Of a DNA stretch of 64,000 nt, positions 30,589 through 42,906 are shown one piece after another; within the stretch, counting starts at the first letter, position 1; each line of letters opens with the position of its first letter. The translations under genes were made by a program, and so were the position numbers. Location: positions 372,001 to 436,000 of the forward strand of contig NZ_NOIS01000001.1 in assembly GCF_004137765.1 (NCBI RefSeq). Direction: 5' to 3'. Source of the stretch: Rothia uropygialis. GTDB lineage: Bacteria > Actinomycetota > Actinomycetes > Actinomycetales > Micrococcaceae. The notes under the pieces are model-generated. The model did not search any database. It saw nothing but the letters and a program-made list of their open reading frames with translations, and had not been told where the DNA came from.

Positions 30589-30915
30589 ATGGCAGTAGGA
30601 TCCAAGGATCAGTCCATCGAGCAGCTGGCTGAATTGGACAACGGAGCTCTCACCGAGAAGCTGCGTTCGTCCAAGGAGGAGCTGTTCAACCTCCGTTTCC
30701 AGAAGGCCACCGGGCAGCTCCAGAATGCGGGCCGCTTCAAGGCTGTCAAGCGCGATATCGCGCGCATCTACACGGTGTTGCGTGAGCGCGAACTGGGCAT
30801 CCGACCCGAGGCCGAGTCTTCGGACGATGCCTCTGACAAGAAGGCCGACAAGAAGGCTGCAAAGGCAGCGAAGAAGGCCGATACGGCTAGCGCTACCGAA
30901 GGTGATGCCAAGTGA
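30589..30915 (+). CDS. rpmC: 50S ribosomal protein L29 with long Lys/Ala tail
   Basis: Exit-site protein contacting L23, here 108 aa instead of the usual 60-75. The normal helical-hairpin core is residues 8-70 ([20 protein letters not shown], then [15 protein letters not shown] and the [13 protein letters not shown] end). The remaining 35 or so residues ([20 protein letters not shown]) form a charged low-complexity tail, likely disordered. Its stop overlaps the rpsQ GTG. Confidence 0.98.
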
Positions 30916-31184
30916 GTGAACAGAAGACGGAAGAGCGTAATCTCCGCAAGACCCGTCGCGGCTATGTCGTCTCCGACAAGATGGACAAGACGGTCGTCGT
31001 CGAGGTCGAAGACCACGTGACCCACGGTCTGTACGGCAAGGTTATGCGTCGTAGCCACAAAGTGAAGGTGCACGACGAGCAGAACGCCGCCGGCGTTGGT
31101 GACCTCGTGCGCATTATGGAGACCCGTCCCATGTCCGCCAACAAGCGTTGGCGGATCGTGGACATCGTCGAGCGCGCCAAGTAA
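30912..31184 (+). CDS. rpsQ: 30S ribosomal protein S17
   Basis: Primary 16S-binding OB-fold protein, 90 aa. [20 protein letters not shown] and [10 protein letters not shown] match the family. It starts from GTG in a 4-base overlap with rpmC and is the last gene of this half of the ribosomal cluster. A terminator follows, and the usual next gene rplN is found only 11 kb downstream, beyond the iron island. Confidence 0.99.
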
Positions 31185-32010: not shown

Positions 32011-33045
32011 ATGAATCGCTTGGCGCGTCGGCGTGATCGGAATGTCCGGAATCTGTTGAGGGCGTTCGTTGCCCTGGTGGTCGCGGTGACAACCATGGCG
32101 TGCCTCAGCGGGTGCGGTGTTTTCGCATCGAGTGGGACCACCGAGCACGCGACGGAGCGGGTGATCAAGGACATCGACGAGGCCGAGGTGCGCGTACCGG
32201 AAAAGCCGAGCCGCGTCGTCGCACTCTCGGAACCCACCCTGGACGCCGCACTTGCGCTCGGCGTGACCCCCGTGGGCACGGTCTCCGGCCGAGGACAGAA
32301 CTCCGTACCGGGCTATCTCGCCGACAAAGCCAAGGACATCCCCCTGGTCGGTGGGATCGGAGATCTGGACTACGAGAAGATCTCCAGCCTCAAACCGGAC
32401 CTGATCATCGTGGACGGCACCAGCGTCAACAACCGGCCGGACGTCCTGGAGATCCTCCGGCAGATCGCCCCCTTGGTCTTCTGCGGTTACGCCGGCGGAC
32501 CCTGGGAACTGAACTTCGATACCGCCGCCCGGGCGCTGAACCTGAAAAGCAAGGGCGAGGAGATCAAAGCTGCTTTCCGGGACAAGGTCGAGCAGGGGAA
32601 GTCCCGGCTCGCAGAGAAGTACGGGAACAAGACCTTCTCGATCGTGCGATGGCAGGGCAGCGGCCCGTCTCTGATCCTCAAGGAGCTTCCGGCGGGACAG
32701 GTTCTGGAGGGACTCGGGCTGAATCGGCCTCAATCCCAGGACCGTGAGGGGAGAGGACACTCGGATCCCGTCTCCCTGGAGAACCTCGCGACCATCGACG
32801 CGGATTACATGTTCTTCGGAACGCTCGGCGGTGCAAGCCAAGCCAACCCGCACTCCGGCTCGACCGCTGATCGGAACGGTGCGGCTCAGGCCCTCAGGAC
32901 CGCCGAGAACACCTCGGGGTTCACCGACCTTTCCGCGTACAAGAACCACCACATCATCACCGTCGATGGATCCCGATGGACCTCCACCGGCGGCCCCTTG
33001 CTGATGAACGGCATCGTCGACGACGTCCTCGCCGAGCTCCCCTGA
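32011..33045 (+). CDS. Iron-complex ABC transporter substrate-binding lipoprotein (FecB/FepB type)
   Basis: Cell-surface receptor lipoprotein of the iron importer encoded downstream. The 344-aa precursor has a basic N-region, a hydrophobic stretch and a lipobox LSGC with acceptor Cys35. The mature part is a class III periplasmic-binding fold: VPEKPSRVVALSEPTLDAAL begins lobe one, YEKISSLKPDLIIVDG and LEILRQIAPLVF are the family's ligand-cleft segments, and the end reads LLMNGIVDDVLAELP. The start ATG 32011 is preferred to an upstream TTG at 31978 because it gives a proper lipoprotein signal. The ligand (ferric siderophore or heme) cannot be read from sequence. Two different permeases downstream favour siderophore import. 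It opens a six-gene cluster. Confidence 0.9.
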   Translation: MNRLARRRDRNVRNLLRAFVALVVAVTTMACLSGCGVFASSGTTEHATERVIKDIDEAEVRVPEKPSRVVALSEPTLDAALALGVTPVGTVSGRGQNSVPGYLADKAKDIPLVGGIGDLDYEKISSLKPDLIIVDGTSVNNRPDVLEILRQIAPLVFCGYAGGPWELNFDTAARALNLKSKGEEIKAAFRDKVEQGKSRLAEKYGNKTFSIVRWQGSGPSLILKELPAGQVLEGLGLNRPQSQDREGRGHSDPVSLENLATIDADYMFFGTLGGASQANPHSGSTADRNGAAQALRTAENTSGFTDLSAYKNHHIITVDGSRWTSTGGPLLMNGIVDDVLAELP

Positions 33046-33124
33046 ACCAAACCTCCGGTCGGAGCCGCCCCGGCGGCGTCGGGCCCTCCCTGTCAATGAT
33101 CGAAGAAGAACTTCATAACCCATC

Positions 33125-35434
33125 ATGAACATCGGAACCTCTCGCGACTTCACCCTCCCTCGCAGACGCACCAGAACAGCCCTCTCGCTCTTCCTCGCCG
33201 TGCTCCTGACCGTGACCGCTTGGCTGTTCCTCCCCGGCGCCTCGGCCGACGACGCGTCGAACAAGCAAACTGTCAGGACCAACGAACAGACCGCCGAAGT
33301 CTCCGGCCCCCGGACGGTCGAGGGTGCGGACAAGATCCGCGTCGAAGGCCGGGGCTGGACGAATTCCGTCGCCGGAGGGGCGCGGATCGCCGTGAAATAC
33401 GACAAGGGAACCGTGTCGGTGGACGGCAAGAGCATCGTCAGCGAATTCGAGGCCGGTCCGGACGGAACCTTCTCCGCCGAGCTGCCCTTCCCCACGACAA
33501 GGAATTCGGACAAGCCCTGGCTCCCCGGAACCGACCATACGATCCACTTCCTGAGCGGGAGCCTCAAAGACGGTGACAAGTCCCGCAACGCGGTGCTGAA
33601 GGTCACTGTCGCCGGAAAGGCGGACTCGCCCGCACCGGAGCTGCCGTGGGTCTCCGCGACGTCGACGCCGGAGTCAGGGGAGCCGGCAACCATCGAGGTC
33701 GCGCCGTTCACCACCGGGGAAGACGCGGCTCTGCACCTGGTCGGCAAGGGGTGGAAGACCGCGGACGGAAAGTCGGGATCCATTGTCTCGATCAAGGTCA
33801 ACTATCAGTCAGCCTCCGGACGCATCGACCAATACGCCAGGGGCGACCAGGCAATCAGCGATCACTTGGCTTCCCTCGGAAAATCCAAGGACCCGACCTC
33901 CTGGGTCCTGCTTGTCCCGAAGGGCACGGTCACCGAGGACCCCGAGCACGGCTTGTACACGATCGACCCGATGGGCTCCTTCGACATCACCGTCAAGGCC
34001 CCTGAAGAACTGCGCCGTGCCACGACCGGGCAGTACCTGACCATCACCGCGCAGTCCGGCCGGAACCTGGACGGGGACGTGCAGCGTCGAGCGGTCACCG
34101 CGCCGATCCCCGTGAACGGGGAGGCGGCTCAGCCGATACAGGACATCTCGGACGTCCAATGCACCACAACGGCCAGACGTCCGACCGCACGGATAGAAAA
34201 CAAGAATATCCCCCGTGGCGAGAAGCTCCACCTGGTCGGCGAGGGCTGGTGCAACCCCGGAGGCAAAACCGGGGCCCCGAAGGTCGCGGTGAAACTGGAC
34301 GACGGCGCCATCTCACACTTGGACGAGAAAGTTCACTCCAACAAGACCATTTGGGCGCTCGTCGACCCCGATCCTGCCACCGGCGCCCTCGATGCATGGA
34401 TCGATCTTCCGGACGGAACAGCCGCCACGTCCGCGCCCGCGTTCCCGGAAGGCGCCCACAGCTTACGTCTTCTGTCGGGGTCCCTTCGCCCGGGCGACCT
34501 CTCGGTGACCTTCGGTGGACGCGGTGCCCTCGACTTCACCCTGGGCGAGTACCGACCCAACGGAACGCCGCCGGCCCTTGGGCTCGACGAGCTCTCGGAG
34601 AGCTCACGCCAGGGTGTCCGAGTCAACCGTGAGGGCACACGGATCACGGTTGAGGTCCCCGGAGGGCAACCCGGGCAGTGGGTCCGGGCAACCCCCTACG
34701 CTGAGGGTGCGCCGCGCAACCCGTGGGGCAGTGGGTGGGTCCGTCTGGCCTCCGACCGCTCGTTGACTTACTCCCTGCCTGACGATGCCTCGCCGGGGGA
34801 GTATCGCCTCGTGGTCCAGAACGGTGAGAACGACGACTTCGGAAAACTCCTGGGGTGGGGCCGCTTGACGGTTCCCGAGAGCGACGGTGACTCACCCGCC
34901 GCTGCCGGCCTTGATCACGGCAACCGTACCCACGGTTCGACGCCGCGCCGTCAGCCACGGGCGTTCGCGGCACGGGCTTTGGACGACCATTCCCGTTCGG
35001 GGCAGACGAGCGCCTCCACTGCGGCCCCCGTGGACCCGGCGGCCGTGCGGGAGATGACGACTCTGGGGCGGCTCCAGGACCAGATGCCGCGCCACGCCCG
35101 CGTTCTCCGAGTTTCAGGTCTGCCCGCGCATTCCTCGCGGATTCCCGCCCAGCGTCCAGCCAAACGCGTTGCGGCCCCGCCCCAGGAATCTCCGAAGGCT
35201 TCTCATCACACCGCGCGACCCTTGGCCTCCCCCTCGTCCCGGGGCCAAGTGCGGAATCCACAGGACCAGGAATCTCAGGAGACCAGTGAGGCCGGACAGG
35301 AAGCAAAGTTCCGACAAAAAGTCTTCACCTGGAACAACGTGCTGCTCGCGCTCGCCGGGGCACTGCTTCTGGCCGTGATTCTGTACTCGACTCGCAAGCC
35401 ATCCGAGCCCTCCTCAGAGACTTCAGAGGAATAA
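33125..35434 (+). CDS. Membrane-anchored surface protein with repeated SGSL-type modules (iron island)
   Basis: A 769-aa exported protein of unknown function. Its signal peptide is at residues 15-41 (LSLFLAVLLTVTAWLFLPGAS). Module A (about 70-162) contains AVKYDKGTVS and FLSGSLKDGD, identical to stretches in the beta-propeller protein at 39575. A diverged copy spans about 190-335 (LVGKGWKTADGKSG). A third spans 355-475 (LVGEGWCNPGGKTG, VAVKLDDGA, LRLLSGSLRPGD). A shorter beta domain spans 495-585. Then comes a Pro/Arg-rich linker, one transmembrane helix (about 735-756) and a short charged tail, with no sortase motif. Position between the binding lipoprotein and the permeases suggests ligand capture or relay at the cell wall. 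That function is inference; I know no name for the module. Confidence 0.8.
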   Translation: MNIGTSRDFTLPRRRTRTALSLFLAVLLTVTAWLFLPGASADDASNKQTVRTNEQTAEVSGPRTVEGADKIRVEGRGWTNSVAGGARIAVKYDKGTVSVDGKSIVSEFEAGPDGTFSAELPFPTTRNSDKPWLPGTDHTIHFLSGSLKDGDKSRNAVLKVTVAGKADSPAPELPWVSATSTPESGEPATIEVAPFTTGEDAALHLVGKGWKTADGKSGSIVSIKVNYQSASGRIDQYARGDQAISDHLASLGKSKDPTSWVLLVPKGTVTEDPEHGLYTIDPMGSFDITVKAPEELRRATTGQYLTITAQSGRNLDGDVQRRAVTAPIPVNGEAAQPIQDISDVQCTTTARRPTARIENKNIPRGEKLHLVGEGWCNPGGKTGAPKVAVKLDDGAISHLDEKVHSNKTIWALVDPDPATGALDAWIDLPDGTAATSAPAFPEGAHSLRLLSGSLRPGDLSVTFGGRGALDFTLGEYRPNGTPPALGLDELSESSRQGVRVNREGTRITVEVPGGQPGQWVRATPYAEGAPRNPWGSGWVRLASDRSLTYSLPDDASPGEYRLVVQNGENDDFGKLLGWGRLTVPESDGDSPAAAGLDHGNRTHGSTPRRQPRAFAARALDDHSRSGQTSASTAAPVDPAAVREMTTLGRLQDQMPRHARVLRVSGLPAHSSRIPAQRPAKRVAAPPQESPKASHHTARPLASPSSRGQVRNPQDQESQETSEAGQEAKFRQKVFTWNNVLLALAGALLLAVILYSTRKPSEPSSETSEE

Positions 35435-35453
35435 GGAAGGAATCGAAACCATC

Positions 35454-36464
35454 ATGATCACCTCGCACTTCCATCGGTCACTCACGGTCCTTTGGGCCGT
35501 GGTGGTGGTTCTTCTACTGGGGATCACGGCATCCTCCGCGCTTCCGCCGGGCGGCGCGAAAAGTAGCACGCAGGGAACCTCGTCCTCTGTCTCACCGCGC
35601 ACACTCAAGGCCGGTGACACCATCCACTTCACCCTGACCGGGTTCCCAAAGAACGAGCAGGTCTACGTCAAGATCGACAACGGCGATGCGTGCCCCGCGG
35701 ATGCGGCCCAGGGTGCGTGCGTCGTGCACCAGCAGAAATCGGACGGAAACGGGCGTGTGGACGGTTCGTTCGTCCTGCCGAAGGACCTGAAGGATGGCAA
35801 GCACACGCTCCGCTTCCTGGCCACGGAGCTCCTTCCGGGCAAGGGAAGCAAGGGTTTCACCAACATCAGCCCGGAATTCACCACGGCTGGGGTCAACCAG
35901 AACTCCTCGGGAGGTCACCGTTATAACGTCACGTCAGAGGAAATCCTCTCCAGCGGCACACGGCAAGATGCCGGATCCGGCGATCACGCGGAGAATCGAG
36001 GCGGCAACGGCAGCGGATCGCCAGGGGGCGGGCAACAAGCGAATGCCGGCCAGCCCGGGGAACAGGCCGGGGGAGCCGGTGAGAGCGGACAGGGAAACGA
36101 AACGATCGAGTATGTGGACGCCGAGGGCCGCCCGATCTCCAAGGAGGAATACGACCGGCTGATGGCCGGCTCCTCGGAGACGGATGAGGCGACCGGCTCG
36201 GAGTATCGCGACGGCGCAGAGAACAAGGAAGGGGAGAACGGAAAGAGCGAGGACACCAAGGACAAATCGAAGCGCAAGGCCACGGCGAGTCCTCGTGCCA
36301 CCTCCAAGGATTCAGGGGGCCACGCCGAGAAGACCTCCGCCGAGACCAAGGGCGACTCCGTGGAATTCCCTTGGGTCGGCACCATCGTCTTCGCCATCAT
36401 GGCCCTGATTGCCGCGATCGTCTGGTACATGCGACGACGTCGTACCGCCACAGAGGAGTCCTAG
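35454..36464 (+). CDS. Small membrane-anchored surface protein of the iron island
   Basis: A 336-aa exported protein I cannot assign to a named family. Residues 1-30 are a signal peptide. Residues 43-145 form a compact beta-rich domain with Cys80 and Cys89, which may form a disulfide, and the phrase DGKHTLRFLATELLPGKG, which parallels the GAHSLRLLSGSLRPGD end of the module in the preceding protein, so the domains are probably distant relatives. A long low-complexity Gly/Ser/Glu/Lys region (150-300) would span the cell wall. It includes IEYVDAEGRPISKEEYDRLM, a short conserved-looking island. One transmembrane helix (306-326) and an RRRR stop-transfer end the protein. GGAAGGAA precedes the start; the gene lies 19 bp after its larger neighbour. 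Confidence 0.75.
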   Translation: MITSHFHRSLTVLWAVVVVLLLGITASSALPPGGAKSSTQGTSSSVSPRTLKAGDTIHFTLTGFPKNEQVYVKIDNGDACPADAAQGACVVHQQKSDGNGRVDGSFVLPKDLKDGKHTLRFLATELLPGKGSKGFTNISPEFTTAGVNQNSSGGHRYNVTSEEILSSGTRQDAGSGDHAENRGGNGSGSPGGGQQANAGQPGEQAGGAGESGQGNETIEYVDAEGRPISKEEYDRLMAGSSETDEATGSEYRDGAENKEGENGKSEDTKDKSKRKATASPRATSKDSGGHAEKTSAETKGDSVEFPWVGTIVFAIMALIAAIVWYMRRRRTATEES

Positions 36465-36518
36465 GCGGCGATGCGAGGTGATCTCTGCTCTCGCCGCCAT
36501 GCCGCGGAGGGCGGACCC

Positions 36519-37532
36519 GTGACGGCGCCGGCCGGGTACCACCGTTCGCTGGGTAGGGTCACGTGGTGCGGACTCTTTGGGCTCTGCACGGTGGCGGTCG
36601 TTCTGGCCTCGCTGCGCTTCGGATCCAACGGGCTGACCGGCTCCGACGTCGCTGAGGTCTTCCGCGGTACGGGTTCGGCTACTGCCCGCACCATCGTGAT
36701 TGAACAGCGGATTCCCCGTACTCTTCTGGGTCTCCTCTGCGGTGCAGCCCTGGGCGTCGCGGGCTCCCTGATGCAGTCACTGACACGCAATCCTCTGGCC
36801 GAGCCCGGCCTGATGGGAATCAACTCGGGGGCGTCCGTCGCCGTCGTGCTCTCCGTGGTGTTGTTCGGGCCGCAGAGCATCCACGTCTACATGCTCGCGG
36901 CATTGGTGGGGGCGGCCGTGGCCGGCACTGGGGTTTTCGTCTTGGGTCGTGGGGAAACGGGTTCGGTTGTCCGGCTTGCGCTCGCAGGTGTTGCCCTCTC
37001 CGCCGCCCTGATGGCGGTCAATCAGGCGTTGGTTCTGTCCAATCGGGACGCGTTCGACGAATTCAGGCTGTGGGTCGCAGGGTCCCTCGAGGGGAGGGAC
37101 ATAACGATCGTGGAGTCGGTCGGCCCCATGATCGCGCTGGGACTGATCCTCGCTGTTGCCGTGGCACCTTCAATCAACGCGTTGGCCCTCGGAGAAGAAT
37201 CCGGTGTTGCACTCGGTGTTCGCCTCGCCAGGACACAGACGATCACCCTGGTATCCGTGGCCCTGCTGACGGGAGCGGCCACCGCGGCCATGGGACCGGT
37301 GGCCTTTGTAGGGCTGGCGGTTCCGTTCGTGGTCCGTCGAGCGCTGGGCAACGACATCCGCTGGGTCAACGGGGGCTCCCTCCTTCTGGGGCCTGCGTGG
37401 TTGCTGGCTGCTGACATCCTGGCTCGTATCGTCATCGCCCCGGAAGAAACACAAGTGGGGATCATTGCGACCCTGGCCGGAGGCCCGCTGTTCATGGCCA
37501 TGATGGCCGGCCGGCAGGTGAGGTCGCTGTGA
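36519..37532 (+). CDS. FecCD-family iron-complex permease, first subunit
   Basis: Polytopic permease of the importer, 337 aa from GTG 36519, predicted to have nine or ten transmembrane helices. Family marks are RIPRTLLGLLCGAALGVAGS, MQSLTRNPLAEPGLMGINSGA (split), and GPVAFVGLAVPFVVRRALGN near the coupling helix that meets the ATPase. I prefer GTG 36519 because GGAGGG lies 7 bases upstream; ATG 36471 in the same frame is an alternative. It overlaps the second permease by GTGA. Paired but different permeases form a FepD/FepG-type heterodimer, more usual for siderophores than for heme. Confidence 0.9.
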   Translation: MTAPAGYHRSLGRVTWCGLFGLCTVAVVLASLRFGSNGLTGSDVAEVFRGTGSATARTIVIEQRIPRTLLGLLCGAALGVAGSLMQSLTRNPLAEPGLMGINSGASVAVVLSVVLFGPQSIHVYMLAALVGAAVAGTGVFVLGRGETGSVVRLALAGVALSAALMAVNQALVLSNRDAFDEFRLWVAGSLEGRDITIVESVGPMIALGLILAVAVAPSINALALGEESGVALGVRLARTQTITLVSVALLTGAATAAMGPVAFVGLAVPFVVRRALGNDIRWVNGGSLLLGPAWLLAADILARIVIAPEETQVGIIATLAGGPLFMAMMAGRQVRSL

Positions 37533-38611
37533 GTACGGGAACTGATCGTCCGTCGAGGTCCAAGGCGCCGCTTCGGAAGGACTTGTCCGGCCGATCTGTT
37601 CTGGCGGTGAGGCGTGGCATCAGTGCGGACATTCCGGTCCGCCGGTTGATCGTGCACCTGATCCTCATGCTGATACTGGGAGCGGTCTCGGCCTGGGCCA
37701 TGATGCAGGGCGAACGGAACTTAGACCTCTCGGGCGTCTATGAGGCGCTCATGGGTAGGGGAGACCGGCTCGATGTCTACTTCGTGAATCAGGTCCGTCT
37801 GCCCCGGGTGGTCACCGCGATCGCGGTCGGCTCCGCACTGGGCCTCTCGGGGGCCGTCTTCCAAGTCCTCTCCGGAAATGCCCTGGGCAGCCCCGACATC
37901 ATCGGCTTCACCCACGGTGCGGCCACAGGGGCGCTGTTGCAGATACTCGTTCTCGACGCCGATCCACTGGGCGTTGCCTTTGGGGCGATCCTCGGCGGAT
38001 TCGGTACGGCCCTCGTGGTGTATCTACTGACTCGGCACACCGGGTTGCGGGGATATCGACTCGTTCTGATCGGAATAGGCACCGGTGCCACGTTGGGGGC
38101 GATCAACTCGCTCCTGGTCGTTCGGGCTTCGTTGACGCAGGCGCAGACCGCTGCCTCCTGGCTCGCGGGTTCTTTGAACACCATGAATTGGTCCAAGACC
38201 CTCCTGATCGCAACCGGCCTGCTGGCTCTGACCCCGCTGCTGATGAAGGCCTCCAGGCCGCTGGCCATGCTGCGGTTCGGCGACCAGATTGCCGCGGGGA
38301 GAGGGGTACGGGTCAACACGTGGCGAGTGACCGGCATGTTCGTGGGTGTTCTTCTGGTCAGTCTTGCCACCGCTATTACTGGTCCGCTGGCCTTTGTCGC
38401 GCTGTCAGCCCCGCACATCGGGCGCACCCTCGCCCCCTCTCGCGGCGCGGGGCTGATCACCACGGCGCTCGTGGGGTCGGTCATTGTCCTCTGCGCGGAC
38501 GTGATAGGCCAGTATCTTTTGCCAGTCTCGCTCAATGCGGGCGTGGTGACCGGTGCTTTGGGTGGGCTGTATCTGGTGTATCTGATCATCGTGGAGCGGA
38601 GGAGAGCGTGA
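37529..38611 (+). CDS. FecCD-family iron-complex permease, second subunit
   Basis: Second channel subunit, 360 aa from GTG 37529, overlapping the first permease's stop. After a basic cytoplasmic N-terminus of about 40 residues come the transmembrane helices. Motifs include RLPRVVTAIAVGSALGLSGA, VFQVLSGNALGSPDIIGFTHG (split) and GPLAFVALSAPHIGRTLAPS, the equivalent of the coupling loop. It is FepG-like by position and by difference from its partner. It overlaps the ATPase gene by GTGA at 38608-38611, so the three transporter genes are translated together. Confidence 0.92.
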   Translation: MSTGTDRPSRSKAPLRKDLSGRSVLAVRRGISADIPVRRLIVHLILMLILGAVSAWAMMQGERNLDLSGVYEALMGRGDRLDVYFVNQVRLPRVVTAIAVGSALGLSGAVFQVLSGNALGSPDIIGFTHGAATGALLQILVLDADPLGVAFGAILGGFGTALVVYLLTRHTGLRGYRLVLIGIGTGATLGAINSLLVVRASLTQAQTAASWLAGSLNTMNWSKTLLIATGLLALTPLLMKASRPLAMLRFGDQIAAGRGVRVNTWRVTGMFVGVLLVSLATAITGPLAFVALSAPHIGRTLAPSRGAGLITTALVGSVIVLCADVIGQYLLPVSLNAGVVTGALGGLYLVYLIIVERRRA

Positions 38612-39417
38612 GCAGCACGAATACCTGGCGGAGCAACTTGTACGCGGAGGGTATCACCGTGGGCTACGGCCAGGATGCGGTGTTGCCGGGCATTGACTTC
38701 GAGGTTCCCGACGGCGAGCTGACCGTGATCCTGGGGCCGAATGCCTGCGGCAAATCCACTCTGCTCAAGACGCTGGCGCGGGTGCTGACCCCGTCTGCGG
38801 GGAAGATCTTCCTGCACGGGGTCCCCATGGAAAAGAGTCGAACCAAGGACATTGCCAGGGTTATGGCGATGCTGCCGCAATCACCTGAAGCCCCCTCGGG
38901 ACTGTGCGTGGCCGACGTCGTCGCTCGCGGTCGATACCCGCATCAGTCCCTCCTGAGGGCGTGGACCGATGAGGACGAACGCGCGTGCCTGGAGGCGATG
39001 ACCGCTGCGGATGTCCTGCCTCTCAGAGAGCGGCCGTTGGAAGCGCTTTCCGGCGGCCAGCGCCAACGGGTGTGGATCGCGATGACATTGGCTCAGGACA
39101 CGCCTCTGATCTTGCTGGATGAGCCCACCACCTATTTGGACATCACTCATCAGATCGAGGTGCTCAATCTGACGCGGCGGCTCCACCGGTCCGGCCGAAC
39201 GATCGTCATGGTCCTCCACGACCTCAACCTCGCATTCAGGTACGCGACTCGGGTGGTCATGATGCGGGACGGAAGGATCATCTCTCAAGGAAACCCCCGC
39301 GAGATTGTGGATGCCGAGCTGGTTGACCAGGTATTCGGCCTCGATGCCTTTGTGACGAGGGATCCCGTGACCGGCGCGCCCATGGTCGTCCCCGCCGAAA
39401 GTACTTTCCAAGGGTAA
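38608..39417 (+). CDS. Iron-complex ABC transporter ATP-binding protein (FepC type)
   Basis: Cytoplasmic ATPase that powers the importer, 269 aa. Walker A is GPNACGKST, the Q-loop is MLPQSPEAP, the signature is LSGGQRQRVWIAM, Walker B is LILLDEPTTYLDI and the switch His is in VLHDLNLAFRY. The DVVARGRYPHQ segment after the Q-loop is characteristic of the FecE/FepC group. GTG start 38608 follows GGAGGAGAG and overlaps the second permease. Last gene of the six-gene cluster; a probable iron box lies between it and the beta-propeller gene. Confidence 0.95.
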   Translation: MSSTNTWRSNLYAEGITVGYGQDAVLPGIDFEVPDGELTVILGPNACGKSTLLKTLARVLTPSAGKIFLHGVPMEKSRTKDIARVMAMLPQSPEAPSGLCVADVVARGRYPHQSLLRAWTDEDERACLEAMTAADVLPLRERPLEALSGGQRQRVWIAMTLAQDTPLILLDEPTTYLDITHQIEVLNLTRRLHRSGRTIVMVLHDLNLAFRYATRVVMMRDGRIISQGNPREIVDAELVDQVFGLDAFVTRDPVTGAPMVVPAESTFQG

Positions 39418-39435
39418 CTAAGGTTACCGTGAATA

Positions 39436-39454
39436 GAAGAATAGGCTAACTTTA
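39436..39454 (+). promoter_or_regulatory. Probable DtxR/IdeR iron box
   Basis: These 19 bases match the IdeR/DtxR consensus at 13 of 19 positions, including the unbroken nonamer TAGGCTAAC (39442-39450). A related half-like sequence, AAGGTTACC, lies at 39420-39428. The site is in the 157-bp gap before the beta-propeller gene, so that gene is probably repressed when iron is plentiful. This is a by-eye match to a known consensus. Confidence 0.65.
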
Positions 39455-39574
39455 ACACGTACCAAGGGTTGCCGTTGTGGCAATAGGGATCGGCCGCGTG
39501 AACGTGGCTCGTATCGGTGTCCATTCCGGCGGCTCGTGGACATCAATCGCATCCAGAGAAATATGAGGATCACT

Positions 39575-42073
39575 ATGTTTTCCTACAACAACTTTCGTCC
39601 TCGAGGGATCAGGGCATGGGCTGTGGTCACCGCGGCAACGGCGCTGACCTTCGCTGGTACGCTCACGGCGGCCCAGGCCGAGGGGGAGAGTTCCCCAGGA
39701 GCTCCGCTTCACGATTCCTCCGCGGCAGCGTGCGAGTTCCGCACCTTCGACGTCCGCGCTGAGCAGACCCAGGGCCTGCCGGGCCAGTATCAGCTCGCCT
39801 ATTCGAAGAAGAATGACGCTCTTTGGGCCACCGGCACGGTCCTCGGAGGGGCAAGTACCACTGCAACTCTCGCCCGGATCGACCCACAGACCATGAAGAT
39901 CGAGAAGACCGTCGCCCTGGACACTGTTCCCTATATTCCAAAGGGCGGGAAGGAGGCCGCCGGTGTCCAGCTCAAGGGCCCCTTCGGGATCGACGTGGAC
40001 GAGGTGAATAACACCGTATGGGTGACCAACACCGTCGCGAACGAGGTCACCGCCTATGACCAGGCTACTTTGAAGGAGGTGTTCTCCACTTCCAAGATCT
40101 CGGCCGAAGATCGCGCGAAAATCGAATTTGCCCATCCCCGGGAGGTCCGTATTGCTGACGGAAAGGCCTTCGTGGGTGTGCGTGGCTCCGTGGTGGTCTT
40201 CGACACGAAGACGTACGCGTTCCTGCAGAAGATCAACGTGGCCGATGCCGAGGACAAGACCACCGCCGTGATGAACATGTCGGTGGACGAGTCCGAAGGG
40301 AAGGCATACTTTCCCGTTCGCATGAGGGATGAGGTCAAGGTCTACGATTTGAAAGACCTGTCGCATCCGGTTCAAGTGATCAAGCTTCACAAGAAGGACC
40401 CCGACGCCAATCTCTACGCATCCGATGTTGCCGTCGACCAATCCCTGAACGAAATCTACGTCTCGTCCCAGGGCGAGAAGGGGAAGAACTCCGGCGTAGG
40501 CGTATACGACAAGACCACCGGTGAGTTCAAGGCGTGGATCGATCTCGGCGGGAGGGCCTTGTCTCTGGACGCCGATGAGGCCAACGACGTCGTCTATCTC
40601 ACGGATTTCGATGGCAACTCTCCTGACAAGGGTGTTTATGTGATCGACGGCCGCACTCACACGGTTGCCGCCACCGTCGCCAAGAACTCCATGGGCGCTC
40701 CCTTCGGCGTCAATGATGTGGTTGTGACTCCGAAGGGCGTGTTCGCCGTCGACAAGGGTGGGGCGTATAAGAACGCGGAGGTGCCCTTCACCATCGACTA
40801 CCGCACTGGAGAATTCACCACCTCGTCGACGTCCGTCAAAGGTGTGCAAAACAAAGCCCCTGAGGGTGCACCCGCCGATTGGCAACCCGCCGAACCGACC
40901 CCAATCAACGCGGACACTCTCCTCAAACTGACGACGACGCCGACAGGCGCGGTCAAGGGCCAGAATAAGACCGCTTCGGGTGCCGAGACCCAAGTGAAGA
41001 CCGTCGAGTCCAAGCAGGATCCGGAGGCGAAGGTCACCGGCGCTACTGTGGTCTCCGAGGGTCAGAGCATCAAGGTCTCGGGGACGGGATGGAAGTACCC
41101 GAATGGATCGGAAGGTTCCAAGGTGGCCGTCAAGTACGACAAGGGCACGGTCTCCATCAATGGTGACCCCGTAATTGCCACCGTCGAAGCAGATCATCAG
41201 GGGAACTGGGAGCTGAGCCTGCCGTATCCGACGACCGGGAATTCCAGTGTCAAGGAAGGCGCGTGGGGCCCTGGAACAACACACACCCTCTCTTTCCTGT
41301 CGGGTTCTCTCAAGGACGGTGACGTGAGTCGTGGTGCGAACCTCGAGATCACCGTCGCTCAACAGACGTGGGATGCTCCGGAGGCGTTGCGCATTACCCC
41401 GACGACGAAGGATTTCCAGGGATACGGGCCCCTGGTTGGCCCGAGAGTCGGGGACGCTGTGACTGCTCCGGGTGAGCCGGGCAAGCAAGATCCGTCACCA
41501 ACCCCGAGCCCTTCGGCTCCGGAAAATCCGCAGGCCCCCGGTACTGACAATGGGGGCAAGGGTTCCGACGAACAGGTCCCTGGTGGCGCCAAGGATGACA
41601 AGGGCCCTGGCGGGCAGGACCCCGGAACTCGCATCGGGGACAAGGGTTCGGGTGAACATGCTCCCGGAGAATCGGACGGTGGGACCGGAATGGATGGTGG
41701 CATGAAGGGCGGCCAGGAAAACACCGCCACGGAAGGCTCCGCTGTTGCCGGTGAAGGCCGGGAGAAGTCTCCGGAAAGCTCAGAGCACCACGGTGAGGCC
41801 GGAGACGGTGTGGCCAGCAACGGCACGGGCGGCAACGGAACGAACGGCAACGGCCCGGTCGTAGGAGCCTCGGGCTCTCAGAGCCAGAACGCGGCGAACG
41901 GCTCGGATGCGAACTCACAGACTCCGGCCTCGTCGAAGGGCTATGCACAGGCCGGACAGCCCGGACTGGCCCACACCGGTGCCGGGAAGCTCATGTGGCT
42001 TGCCGGTGCTGGTGCGGCGGCAACGGCTGCCGGCGTCGCGGTTGTGACCCTTCGTCGCAAGAGGGCGCACTGA
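39575..42073 (+). CDS. LAHTG-anchored surface protein: beta-propeller plus SGSL module
   Basis: An 832-aa wall-anchored protein. Residues 1-35 are a signal peptide. Residues about 52-422 look like a YncE/NHL-type beta-propeller, with repeated blades such as GPFGIDVDEVNNTVWVTN, SDVAVDQSLNEIYVSSQ and DVVVTPKGVFAVDKG. Residues 482-594 are the module also found in the 33125 protein, with identical AVKYDKGTVS and FLSGSLKDGD. A Pro/Gly/Ser-rich wall-spanning linker follows (about 625-790), then LAHTG (798-802), a hydrophobic helix and RRKRAH, matching the LAxTG signals attributed to class E sortases. ATG 39575 has GAGGA 5 bases upstream; ATG 39563 is possible. With an iron box upstream, it may be an iron-regulated ligand or hemoprotein receptor; this is inferred. 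Confidence 0.82.
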   Translation: MFSYNNFRPRGIRAWAVVTAATALTFAGTLTAAQAEGESSPGAPLHDSSAAACEFRTFDVRAEQTQGLPGQYQLAYSKKNDALWATGTVLGGASTTATLARIDPQTMKIEKTVALDTVPYIPKGGKEAAGVQLKGPFGIDVDEVNNTVWVTNTVANEVTAYDQATLKEVFSTSKISAEDRAKIEFAHPREVRIADGKAFVGVRGSVVVFDTKTYAFLQKINVADAEDKTTAVMNMSVDESEGKAYFPVRMRDEVKVYDLKDLSHPVQVIKLHKKDPDANLYASDVAVDQSLNEIYVSSQGEKGKNSGVGVYDKTTGEFKAWIDLGGRALSLDADEANDVVYLTDFDGNSPDKGVYVIDGRTHTVAATVAKNSMGAPFGVNDVVVTPKGVFAVDKGGAYKNAEVPFTIDYRTGEFTTSSTSVKGVQNKAPEGAPADWQPAEPTPINADTLLKLTTTPTGAVKGQNKTASGAETQVKTVESKQDPEAKVTGATVVSEGQSIKVSGTGWKYPNGSEGSKVAVKYDKGTVSINGDPVIATVEADHQGNWELSLPYPTTGNSSVKEGAWGPGTTHTLSFLSGSLKDGDVSRGANLEITVAQQTWDAPEALRITPTTKDFQGYGPLVGPRVGDAVTAPGEPGKQDPSPTPSPSAPENPQAPGTDNGGKGSDEQVPGGAKDDKGPGGQDPGTRIGDKGSGEHAPGESDGGTGMDGGMKGGQENTATEGSAVAGEGREKSPESSEHHGEAGDGVASNGTGGNGTNGNGPVVGASGSQSQNAANGSDANSQTPASSKGYAQAGQPGLAHTGAGKLMWLAGAGAAATAAGVAVVTLRRKRAH

Positions 42074-42534: not shown

Positions 42535-42906
42535 GTGATTCAGCAAGAGTCACGGCTCAAGGTCGCCGATAACACGGGAGCCAAGGAAATCCTTGCTATC
42601 CGTATTCTCGGTGGATCTGGCCGTCGCTACGCAGGTATTGGCGACATCATCGTCGCCACCGTCAAGGACGCAATTCCTGGCGGTAACGTCAAGAAGGGTG
42701 ACGTCGTCAAAGCCGTCATCGTTCGTACCAAGAAGGAGACCCGTCGTGCAGACGGCTCCTACATCAAGTTCGACGAGAACTCGGCAGTGATCCTCAAGAA
42801 CACCGACGGCGAGCCCCGCGGTACCCGTATTTTCGGGCCGGTTGGGCGCGAGCTGCGCGACAAGCGGTTCATGAAGATTATCTCGCTTGCTCCGGAGGTG
42901 CTCTAA
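42535..42906 (+). CDS. rplN: 50S ribosomal protein L14
   Basis: Intersubunit-bridge protein of the large subunit, 123 aa, from GTG 42535. [18 protein letters not shown] opens it, and the S8e/L14 signature region [17 protein letters not shown] and the end [12 protein letters not shown] are standard. It normally follows rpsQ directly; here it restarts the ribosomal cluster after the 11-kb accessory stretch. Confidence 0.99.

Follow-up and report, generated by a model that had tools for sequence, protein, structure and literature searches.

What is taken up by the seven genes that separate two ribosomal protein genes in Rothia uropygialis, and what part do the three surface proteins among them play? 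The genes lie on the forward strand of the window, the whole 64,000-nucleotide stretch analyzed here (positions 372001–436000 of contig C1 in a genome of 2.96 Mb, G000; the nearest genomes by rpoB are G003, then G006), and encode an iron-type ATP-binding cassette (ABC) importer together with three exported proteins that share an immunoglobulin (Ig)-like module. Based on gene order, profile searches, and gene distribution, we consider that this island probably serves to import a ferric catecholate siderophore, one of the enterobactin or salmochelin kind that the same species makes. The importer and the siderophore are of known kinds; the module is unnamed and widespread.

Gene content of the island

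The island sits between rpsQ (30912..31184, +) and rplN (42535..42906, +), two open reading frames (ORFs) that were named from reading the sequence and occupy the same place in relatives. Its first gene encodes a FecB-type substrate-binding lipoprotein (BP; 32011..33045, +; lipobox LSGC; Peripla_BP_2, E 1.2e-23), which is 85% identical to a lipoprotein of R. koreensis (NZ_NOIQ01000001.1) and whose longest ORF begins at TTG 31978. The next two genes encode exported proteins, as assigned from sequence combined with a structural model or a profile: MODA (33125..35434, +), with three modules, a C-terminal domain, a linker, and one C-terminal helix, and MODB (35454..36464, +), with one module, a linker, and one C-terminal helix. 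Two FecCD permeases, PERM1 (36471..37532, +; PF01032, E 1.4e-78) and PERM2 (37529..38611, +; PF01032, E 2e-69), and an ABC ATPase of the FecE/FepC type (38608..39417, +; ABC_tran, E 7.2e-29) follow. The seventh gene, PROP (39575..42073, +; an alternative GTG start at 39536 is possible), encodes an exported protein with a predicted YncE-type beta-propeller, one module, a Pro/Gly-rich linker, and an LAHTG anchor. Spacing within the first six genes is 79, 19, 6, −4, and −4 bp, followed by 157 bp before the propeller gene. The sequence-only reading that preceded this work had listed the same seven genes, the first six in one tight run, and the ORF list and these gaps agree with it on both counts.

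BP, both permeases, and the ATPase, which form a single operon, exceed their Pfam cut-offs (Peripla_BP_2, FecCD twice, and ABC_tran). None of the importer proteins reaches the cut-off of an NCBIfam equivalog for a named siderophore. The top NCBIfam models are an iron-enterobactin permease for PERM2 and the FecE and enterobactin ATPase equivalogs for the ATPase, all under their cut-offs (FecE: 296.6 of 375; PRK10441 permease: 272.1 of 428; PRK10440 enterobactin permease: 272 of 422).

An unnamed module shared by the three surface proteins

Using profiles that were seeded with the two copies indicated by the sequence-only reading (in the proteins at 33125 and 39575) and then iterated over relatives, we identified five copies of the module on the forward strand of the window genome. 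Three lie in MODA (A1: 33317..33610, residues 65–162, iterated profile iE 1.2e-33; A2: 33710..34096, residues 196–324, iE 7e-24; A3: 34211..34507, residues 363–461, iE 1e-28), one in MODB (B1: 35601..35858, residues 50–135, iE 2.7e-22), and one in PROP (P1: 41051..41356, residues 493–594 counted from ATG 39575, iE 3.9e-35). A whole-genome search at E ≤ 0.01 returned no copies beyond these five.

Kinship is clearest between A1 and P1, which align with a score of 243 versus a shuffled mean of 29 (z 40), and the decapeptides AVKYDKGTVS and FLSGSLKDGD are identical in MODA and PROP (residues 89/518 and 142/574, respectively, with PROP again counted from ATG 39575). Both the shared module and the further diverged copies that had been claimed for MODA were thus recovered, the latter as A2 and A3. 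For A1, A2, and A3, it is profile comparison that supports kinship (hhalign 99.6–99.9%), and some pairwise comparisons are unclear (A2 vs. A1: z 2.9; B1 vs. A1: z 3.6; A2 vs. B1: z 0.1). B1 was not significant with the two-sequence seed (E 2.5), and significance was reached only once the profile had been iterated over relatives; in the shuffle test it reaches z 6.3 against A3 and z 6.6 against P1. MODB had earlier been credited with a related-looking ending: the relatedness stands, as a full diverged module, and its place is the N-terminal half of the protein rather than the ending.

Across 274 profile-aligned modules, a Lys is kept in 87%, Trp or Phe together in 90%, a Gly in 98%, and a Pro in 94%, and an Arg is kept in 71% of the rows extending to its position (208 rows). 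Conserved residues of this basic kind would be well matched to a ferric catecholate, which carries negative charge. AlphaFold predicts the module to be a strand-rich sandwich.

MODA, MODB, and PROP reached no Pfam or NCBIfam cut-off. When 71 modules were compared to Pfam at E ≤ 0.01, eight families were matched, none at its cut-off and with neither NEAT nor HtaA (PF04213) among them. The HtaA domain had no match at E ≤ 1 in the three proteins, and hhalign of the module against six Rothia HtaA domains gave 0.4%, in line with the earlier statement that no HtaA-like sequence is present. A PDB profile search with the module returned only matches at E 0.03–0.46, and with MODA alone nothing at E ≤ 1. 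Assignment of the module to NEAT or to a named Ig family was dropped, given these weak PDB matches and the absence of a Pfam or NCBIfam family at cut-off. Accordingly, the description of the module as unnamed holds for Pfam and NCBIfam, where no named family with another function emerged.

Linkage to siderophore genes in Rothia

In R. mucilaginosa (L061/L184), R. aeria (L186), and the genome G010 (L187), the genes for BP, MODA, MODB, PERM1, PERM2, the ATPase, and Fes-, EntE-, and EntF-type proteins follow each other in this order on one strand, with the importer and MODA/MODB located elsewhere than the rpsQ–rplN site. According to PMC7190385, R. mucilaginosa ATCC 25296 produces enterobactin, as determined by liquid chromatography–tandem mass spectrometry and nuclear magnetic resonance; the R. 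mucilaginosa genome analyzed here is from another strain. Six further Rothia genomes carry Fes-, EntE-, and EntF-type genes between the ATPase and PROP (G005, G014, G027, and G028 [L036–L039], G008, and G011; the islands of G008 and G011 are on broken contigs, and domains were checked on the L036 set). In R. aeria (G001, L186) and in G024, the EntF-type genes are in several pieces, and rpoB of G001 is split too, maybe due to sequencing errors.

Among 35 Rothia genomes, BP is present in 18, PROP in 17, an EntF-type non-ribosomal peptide synthetase (NRPS) in 17, Fes in 19, and HtaA in 19, where NRPS presence was defined as a best match of at least 470 bits that counts the broken EntF of G001 and omits that of G024. 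PROP and EntF agree in 35/35 genomes and BP and EntF in 34/35, the exception being G016 (65% complete); with the broken G024 gene counted, agreement is 34/35 and 33/35. Fisher p-values, which ignore kinship, are 2.2e-10 (PROP/EntF) and 4.2e-9 (BP/EntF), or 4.2e-9 and 7.2e-8 with G024. An rpoB tree was built from 33 genomes, 31 of which entered the contrasts (G016 and G004, 65% and 87% complete, were omitted from contrasts, and G001 and G023, which lack a whole rpoB match, are not in the tree); on it, all six independent BP/EntF contrasts agree (sign test p 0.031). When G024 is counted, 5 or 6 of the 6 contrasts agree (p 0.031–0.063), and for Fes the figure is 4 to 6 of 6.

The island of the window itself contains no Fes, EntE, EntF, or other siderophore-synthesis genes. 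These are found on contig C5 of the same genome (56.6–75 kb; L170, L171), where EntF-, EntE-, and Fes-type, isochorismatase, dhbA-like dehydrogenase, and isochorismate synthase genes are accompanied by an iroB-like glycosyltransferase gene (57–59% over 98–99% compared to iroB of enterobacterial plasmids) and an iroC-like exporter gene (49–50% over 99% compared to plasmid iroC). An iroB-like gene occurs in 4 of the 35 Rothia genomes. Because the iroB- and iroC-like genes sit with EntF-, EntE-, and Fes-type genes, the window species likely makes a salmochelin-like product, which the island may carry. A literature search (titles and abstracts, mostly of non-subscription journals) returned nothing on a salmochelin-type locus in Rothia.

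Distribution across actinobacteria

A scan of genome contigs with a single module sequence returned 164 pattern stretches, of which none was confirmed, and the second scan was therefore done with an alignment of the lipoprotein. This recovered 75 loci in named genomes; because each needs one of two exact peptide patterns, the full spread is not shown by these numbers. Fifty loci (L052–L101) have a close BP (identity at least 48%) and belong to 13 genera (Rothia, Corynebacterium, Nocardioides, Nesterenkonia, Microbacterium, Leucobacter, Pseudoclavibacter, Gulosibacter, Klugiella, Cellulomonas, Tessaracoccus, Micropruina, and Buchananella) as well as to Coriobacteriales and other metagenome-assembled genomes (MAGs). 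The record 'Curtobacterium sp. S6' (L053/G031) is probably mislabelled; G031 groups within Rothia on the rpoB tree.

The module is present in the fetched DNA at 48 of the 50 close loci, the other two being L099, where the contig ends 233 bp on, and L097. In 44 of the 50, the ORF of the module gene starts within 200 bp after BP; as for the remaining six, the module frame starts upstream and spans this point in L071 and L077, it is 361 bp off in L054, and the contig edge is reached after BP in L083 and L099. Fes- and/or EntE/EntF-type matches, some of them weak, were found in the fetched flanks of 27 close loci. The other 25 of the 75 loci (seven from Gordonia and 18 from Paenibacillus and other firmicutes; BP 24–38% identical) have no module.

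Searching with the module first, we found it in 7 of 394 sampled class genomes (profile A1, E ≤ 1e-3) and 15 of 396 order genomes (profile A3, E ≤ 1e-6), with all open frames used in the neighborhoods. Together, the two samples yield 15 genomes outside Rothia. In 11 of these, the fetched stretch of ~20 kb around the module also contains permeases and an ATPase of this type; those without a transporter nearby are G676, G771 (where the contig ends after 17 kb), G783, and G126. Because the profiles lean on a Rothia copy (A1) and an importer-near copy (A3), this result may favor the importer-linked form. The sequence-only reading had proposed a profile search of actinobacterial genomes for clustering with FecCD/FepC genes, and such clustering is what both searches returned; homologs usually lying away from iron transporters were seen in neither. 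Thus, its picture of three surface proteins that share an unnamed module and are dedicated to an ABC importer of the iron type is upheld by Pfam and by gene distribution.

Several loci differ in architecture. Two of the 11 genomes just mentioned, G224 (L176) and G209 (L177), encode a protein of roughly 1160 residues that contains ten weak copies of the module; its gene is directly beside an EntF-type gene and near the importer. In Coriobacteriales MAGs (L076, L083, L100) module proteins of more than 2000 residues adjoin BP. The rpsQ–rplN location of the set is shared with Rothia by a member of another family, Corynebacterium sp. HS2168-gen11 (L098).

Features of the surface proteins and a candidate iron box

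Both MODA and MODB have a hydrophobic N-terminus and a single C-terminal hydrophobic helix (residues 733–758 and 302–328, respectively). The AlphaFold model of MODA residues 45–600 (mean pLDDT 89.8) is a chain of strand-rich sandwiches. Downstream of the three modules, MODA has a conserved C-terminal domain (34553..34876, +, ends approximate), which 29 of 30 aligned rows cover and which does not appear to be another module copy (hhalign 12% against the module and 7% against A3). MODA-type proteins of relatives contain 1 to 6 detected modules, and that of R. mucilaginosa has one only.

The propeller part of PROP (39734..40915, +, ends approximate) is predicted to have a YncE-type fold (AlphaFold model, mean pLDDT 85.6; Foldseek YncE TMt 0.78–0.81), and the protein scores 55.9 bits on the NCBIfam YncE model NF052280, whose cut-off is 400. 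The Foldseek matches include, at rank 34, BtuG2 (8ptf), a surface propeller whose structure was solved with bound cyanocobalamin. Sequence and helix prediction place an LAHTG sorting signal, a hydrophobic helix, and a basic tail at the end of PROP (41966..42070, +); the tail matches LPXTG_anchor and Microco_LAVTG under cut-off, and the window genome encodes three sortases over cut-off, which is consistent with attachment of PROP to the wall by a sortase. A tblastn search of plasmids with PROP returned a single weak Streptomyces propeller. Propeller genes occupy the rpsQ–rplN site without an importer at the Rothia loci L042–L045, and at L040 (G015) three tandem propeller genes, two of them with modules, lie between rpsQ and rplE, with the importer elsewhere (L181).

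Compared to a 19-bp DtxR/IdeR consensus, no box within three mismatches exists in the window, and a weak site (13/19; 39436..39454, +) precedes the propeller gene (1 of 175 window stretches reached 13). Using the same consensus, sites of 15–16/19 were found just before BP in 7 of 53 rows (L059, L060, L063, L068, L069, L072, and L099). Given these boxes, iron control of the island is plausible, with the signal weak in the window.

Cargo and function of the island

Because the importer and the module proteins tend to go with enterobactin-type genes, the set probably catches enterobactin-type carriers at the cell surface, and from linkage and co-occurrence we infer that a catecholate siderophore rather than heme is most likely the cargo. 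The sequence-only reading had left siderophores and heme undecided; its siderophore side is favored, narrowed to catecholates by the Fes/EntE/EntF linkage, and its heme side is weakened. In corynebacteria, the htaA-hmuTUV-htaB layout places a multi-domain and a one-domain exported protein beside an ABC importer, and because the layout of MODA (multi-module) and MODB (one-module) beside their importer resembles it, the suggestion that these proteins play the part of HtaA is fair as an analogy. Taken further, with the module proteins as a sequence-unrelated stand-in for HtaA/HtaB and the importer carrying heme, it becomes a proposal that we consider improbable. The ATPase does score 233.6 of 261 bits on the NCBIfam heme ATPase model, and in plain counts HtaA goes with BP (15 of 18 genomes with BP, 4 of 17 without; p 0.0006). 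However, true HtaA domains are encoded away from the island in the same genome (G000:C3 and C2), the module shows no kinship to HtaA in sequence, and on the rpoB tree only three of six HtaA/BP contrasts agree, the other three being without difference, compared to six of six for EntF. The recurring neighbors that we identified are of Fes, EntE, and EntF types (heme oxygenase genes were not searched for). The heme reading is weakened accordingly, though the plain counts correlate.

It is also unlikely that the island mainly imports the siderophores of neighbors while the species' own product enters through the second BP and FecCD gene inside the C5 siderophore locus. The absence of Fes, EntE, and EntF genes from the window island and the separate C5 genes would fit such piracy; yet the C5 FecCD gene best matches B12-type models, and across Rothia retention or loss of the island is mostly shared by EntF, a coupling that piracy would not demand. 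A closer contender, in our view still somewhat unlikely, is that the modules are scaffolds, spacers in the form of Ig-like stalks, or adhesins, retained because they help to assemble the importer or to position it in the wall, with no contact to the siderophore at any point. A fold search with the MODA model returned generic Ig chains (from complement, S-layer, and other proteins; Z about 7–8.6), the best of which (SlaB S-layer, Z 8.6) is close to the range regarded as common; NEAT is not among the matches listed, which proves nothing. The varying module number per MODA-type protein and the occurrence of module proteins away from transporters would also suit a structural role. Against this, a module gene directly follows BP in at least 44 of 50 loci, and the retention of the Lys, Trp/Phe, and Arg positions hints at more than a spacer.

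Several observations weigh against uptake of the species' own catecholate by the module-bearing island, the reading that we nevertheless consider probable. By profile, the best solved relatives of BP are YfiY, SirA, and FecB, which are nearer to it than enterochelin binders, and the second BP and FecCD gene at C5 could import the species' own product. Neither Fes nor EntE/EntF was found in 23 of the 50 close loci, many of them from Corynebacterium (flanks of up to 10 kb, some shorter). L097 has a close BP followed by 2.7 kb of a long open frame with no clear module. The BP relatives of Gordonia (L102–L108; 35–38% identical) adjoin an EntF-type gene in six of seven loci and the module in none; catechol uptake may thus not need the module, and these loci are possibly a module-free version. 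In the mucilaginosa clade, extra module proteins lie away from transporters (L050, L051), where two small ones stand beside a ClpB-like gene; at L050, a VTC-domain gene is nearby as well. A box of at least 15 precedes BP in only 7 of 53 rows, and that of the window scores 10/19. Regarding co-occurrence, the EntF score counts one broken gene and omits another, the Fisher p-values ignore kinship, and joint loss is partly mechanical in the clade of G005, G014, G027, and G028 and in G008 because NRPS and importer share one island. Contrasts with such physical linkage weigh less, and the clear unlinked contrast is G013 versus G031.

Under catecholate uptake, the mechanism that we propose begins with PROP, which, anchored by a sortase, would concentrate the ferric siderophore outside the wall. 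Its Ig-like module and then those of membrane-tethered MODA and MODB would hold the siderophore and pass it across the wall space, or would hold the parts together; the direction and order of this hand-over, like binding by module and propeller, are conjectural. BP would receive the siderophore and load the FecCD/FepC-type importer, and the Fes-type esterase encoded elsewhere in the genome would free the iron inside. That this amounts to a protein relay for intact ferric catecholates across a Gram-positive wall, built on a new Ig-like siderophore-binding module and spread over actinobacteria, is a tentative proposal for which we claim a lesser likelihood than for catecholate uptake itself.

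Comparison to known systems and significance

The FecBCDE, FepBDGC, and FhuBCD systems have the same Peripla_BP_2 lipoprotein, two FecCD permeases, and FecE/FepC-type ATPase in one operon; unlike them, the island is Gram-positive and includes three surface proteins that share a module, two of them directly after BP. It resembles HtaA/HtaB-HmuTUV in that multi-domain and one-domain exported proteins, each with a C-terminal helix, stand beside a BP and importer, and differs in lacking an HtaA domain and in going with enterobactin-type genes. The island also shares an arrangement with the Isd/NEAT heme relay of firmicutes, in which a lipoprotein and an ABC importer are accompanied by Ig-like modules, some anchored by a sortase and others tethered to the membrane; the modules of the island, however, have no NEAT match in Pfam (71 modules), and its cargo is most likely a siderophore. 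PROP is predicted to share the propeller fold of YncE (3vgz) and adds a module and a sortase signal; BtuG2, by comparison, is a surface-exposed propeller lipoprotein.

The same literature search found no paper that deals with the module, with MODA/MODB, or with a relay of siderophores at the surface. Enterobactin clusters have been described for Rothia (PMC7190385; PMC13347742); in R. mucilaginosa and others, their Fes, EntE, and EntF genes directly adjoin those for the importer and the module proteins, and flanking of such enterobactin-like clusters by ribosomal protein genes is reported in PMC13347742. The parts of the main text of both papers considered here treat biosynthesis and do not mention the module, MODA/MODB, or the propeller protein. 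The sequence-only reading had named the island its best candidate for an undescribed system, and this applies, within the literature searched, to the module and the surface set, whereas enterobactin-like clusters of Rothia with the ribosomal flank are already in print.

Siderophore uptake in Gram-positive bacteria is usually drawn as free diffusion across the wall to a lipoprotein and an ABC importer. A conserved surface set tied to enterobactin-type uptake in actinobacteria of the mouth, of animals, and of the environment would change this picture and would name a widespread unnamed domain family. The question is testable in R. mucilaginosa, for which the siderophore is already known. If true, the relay would do for siderophores what the Isd and Hta relays do for heme.

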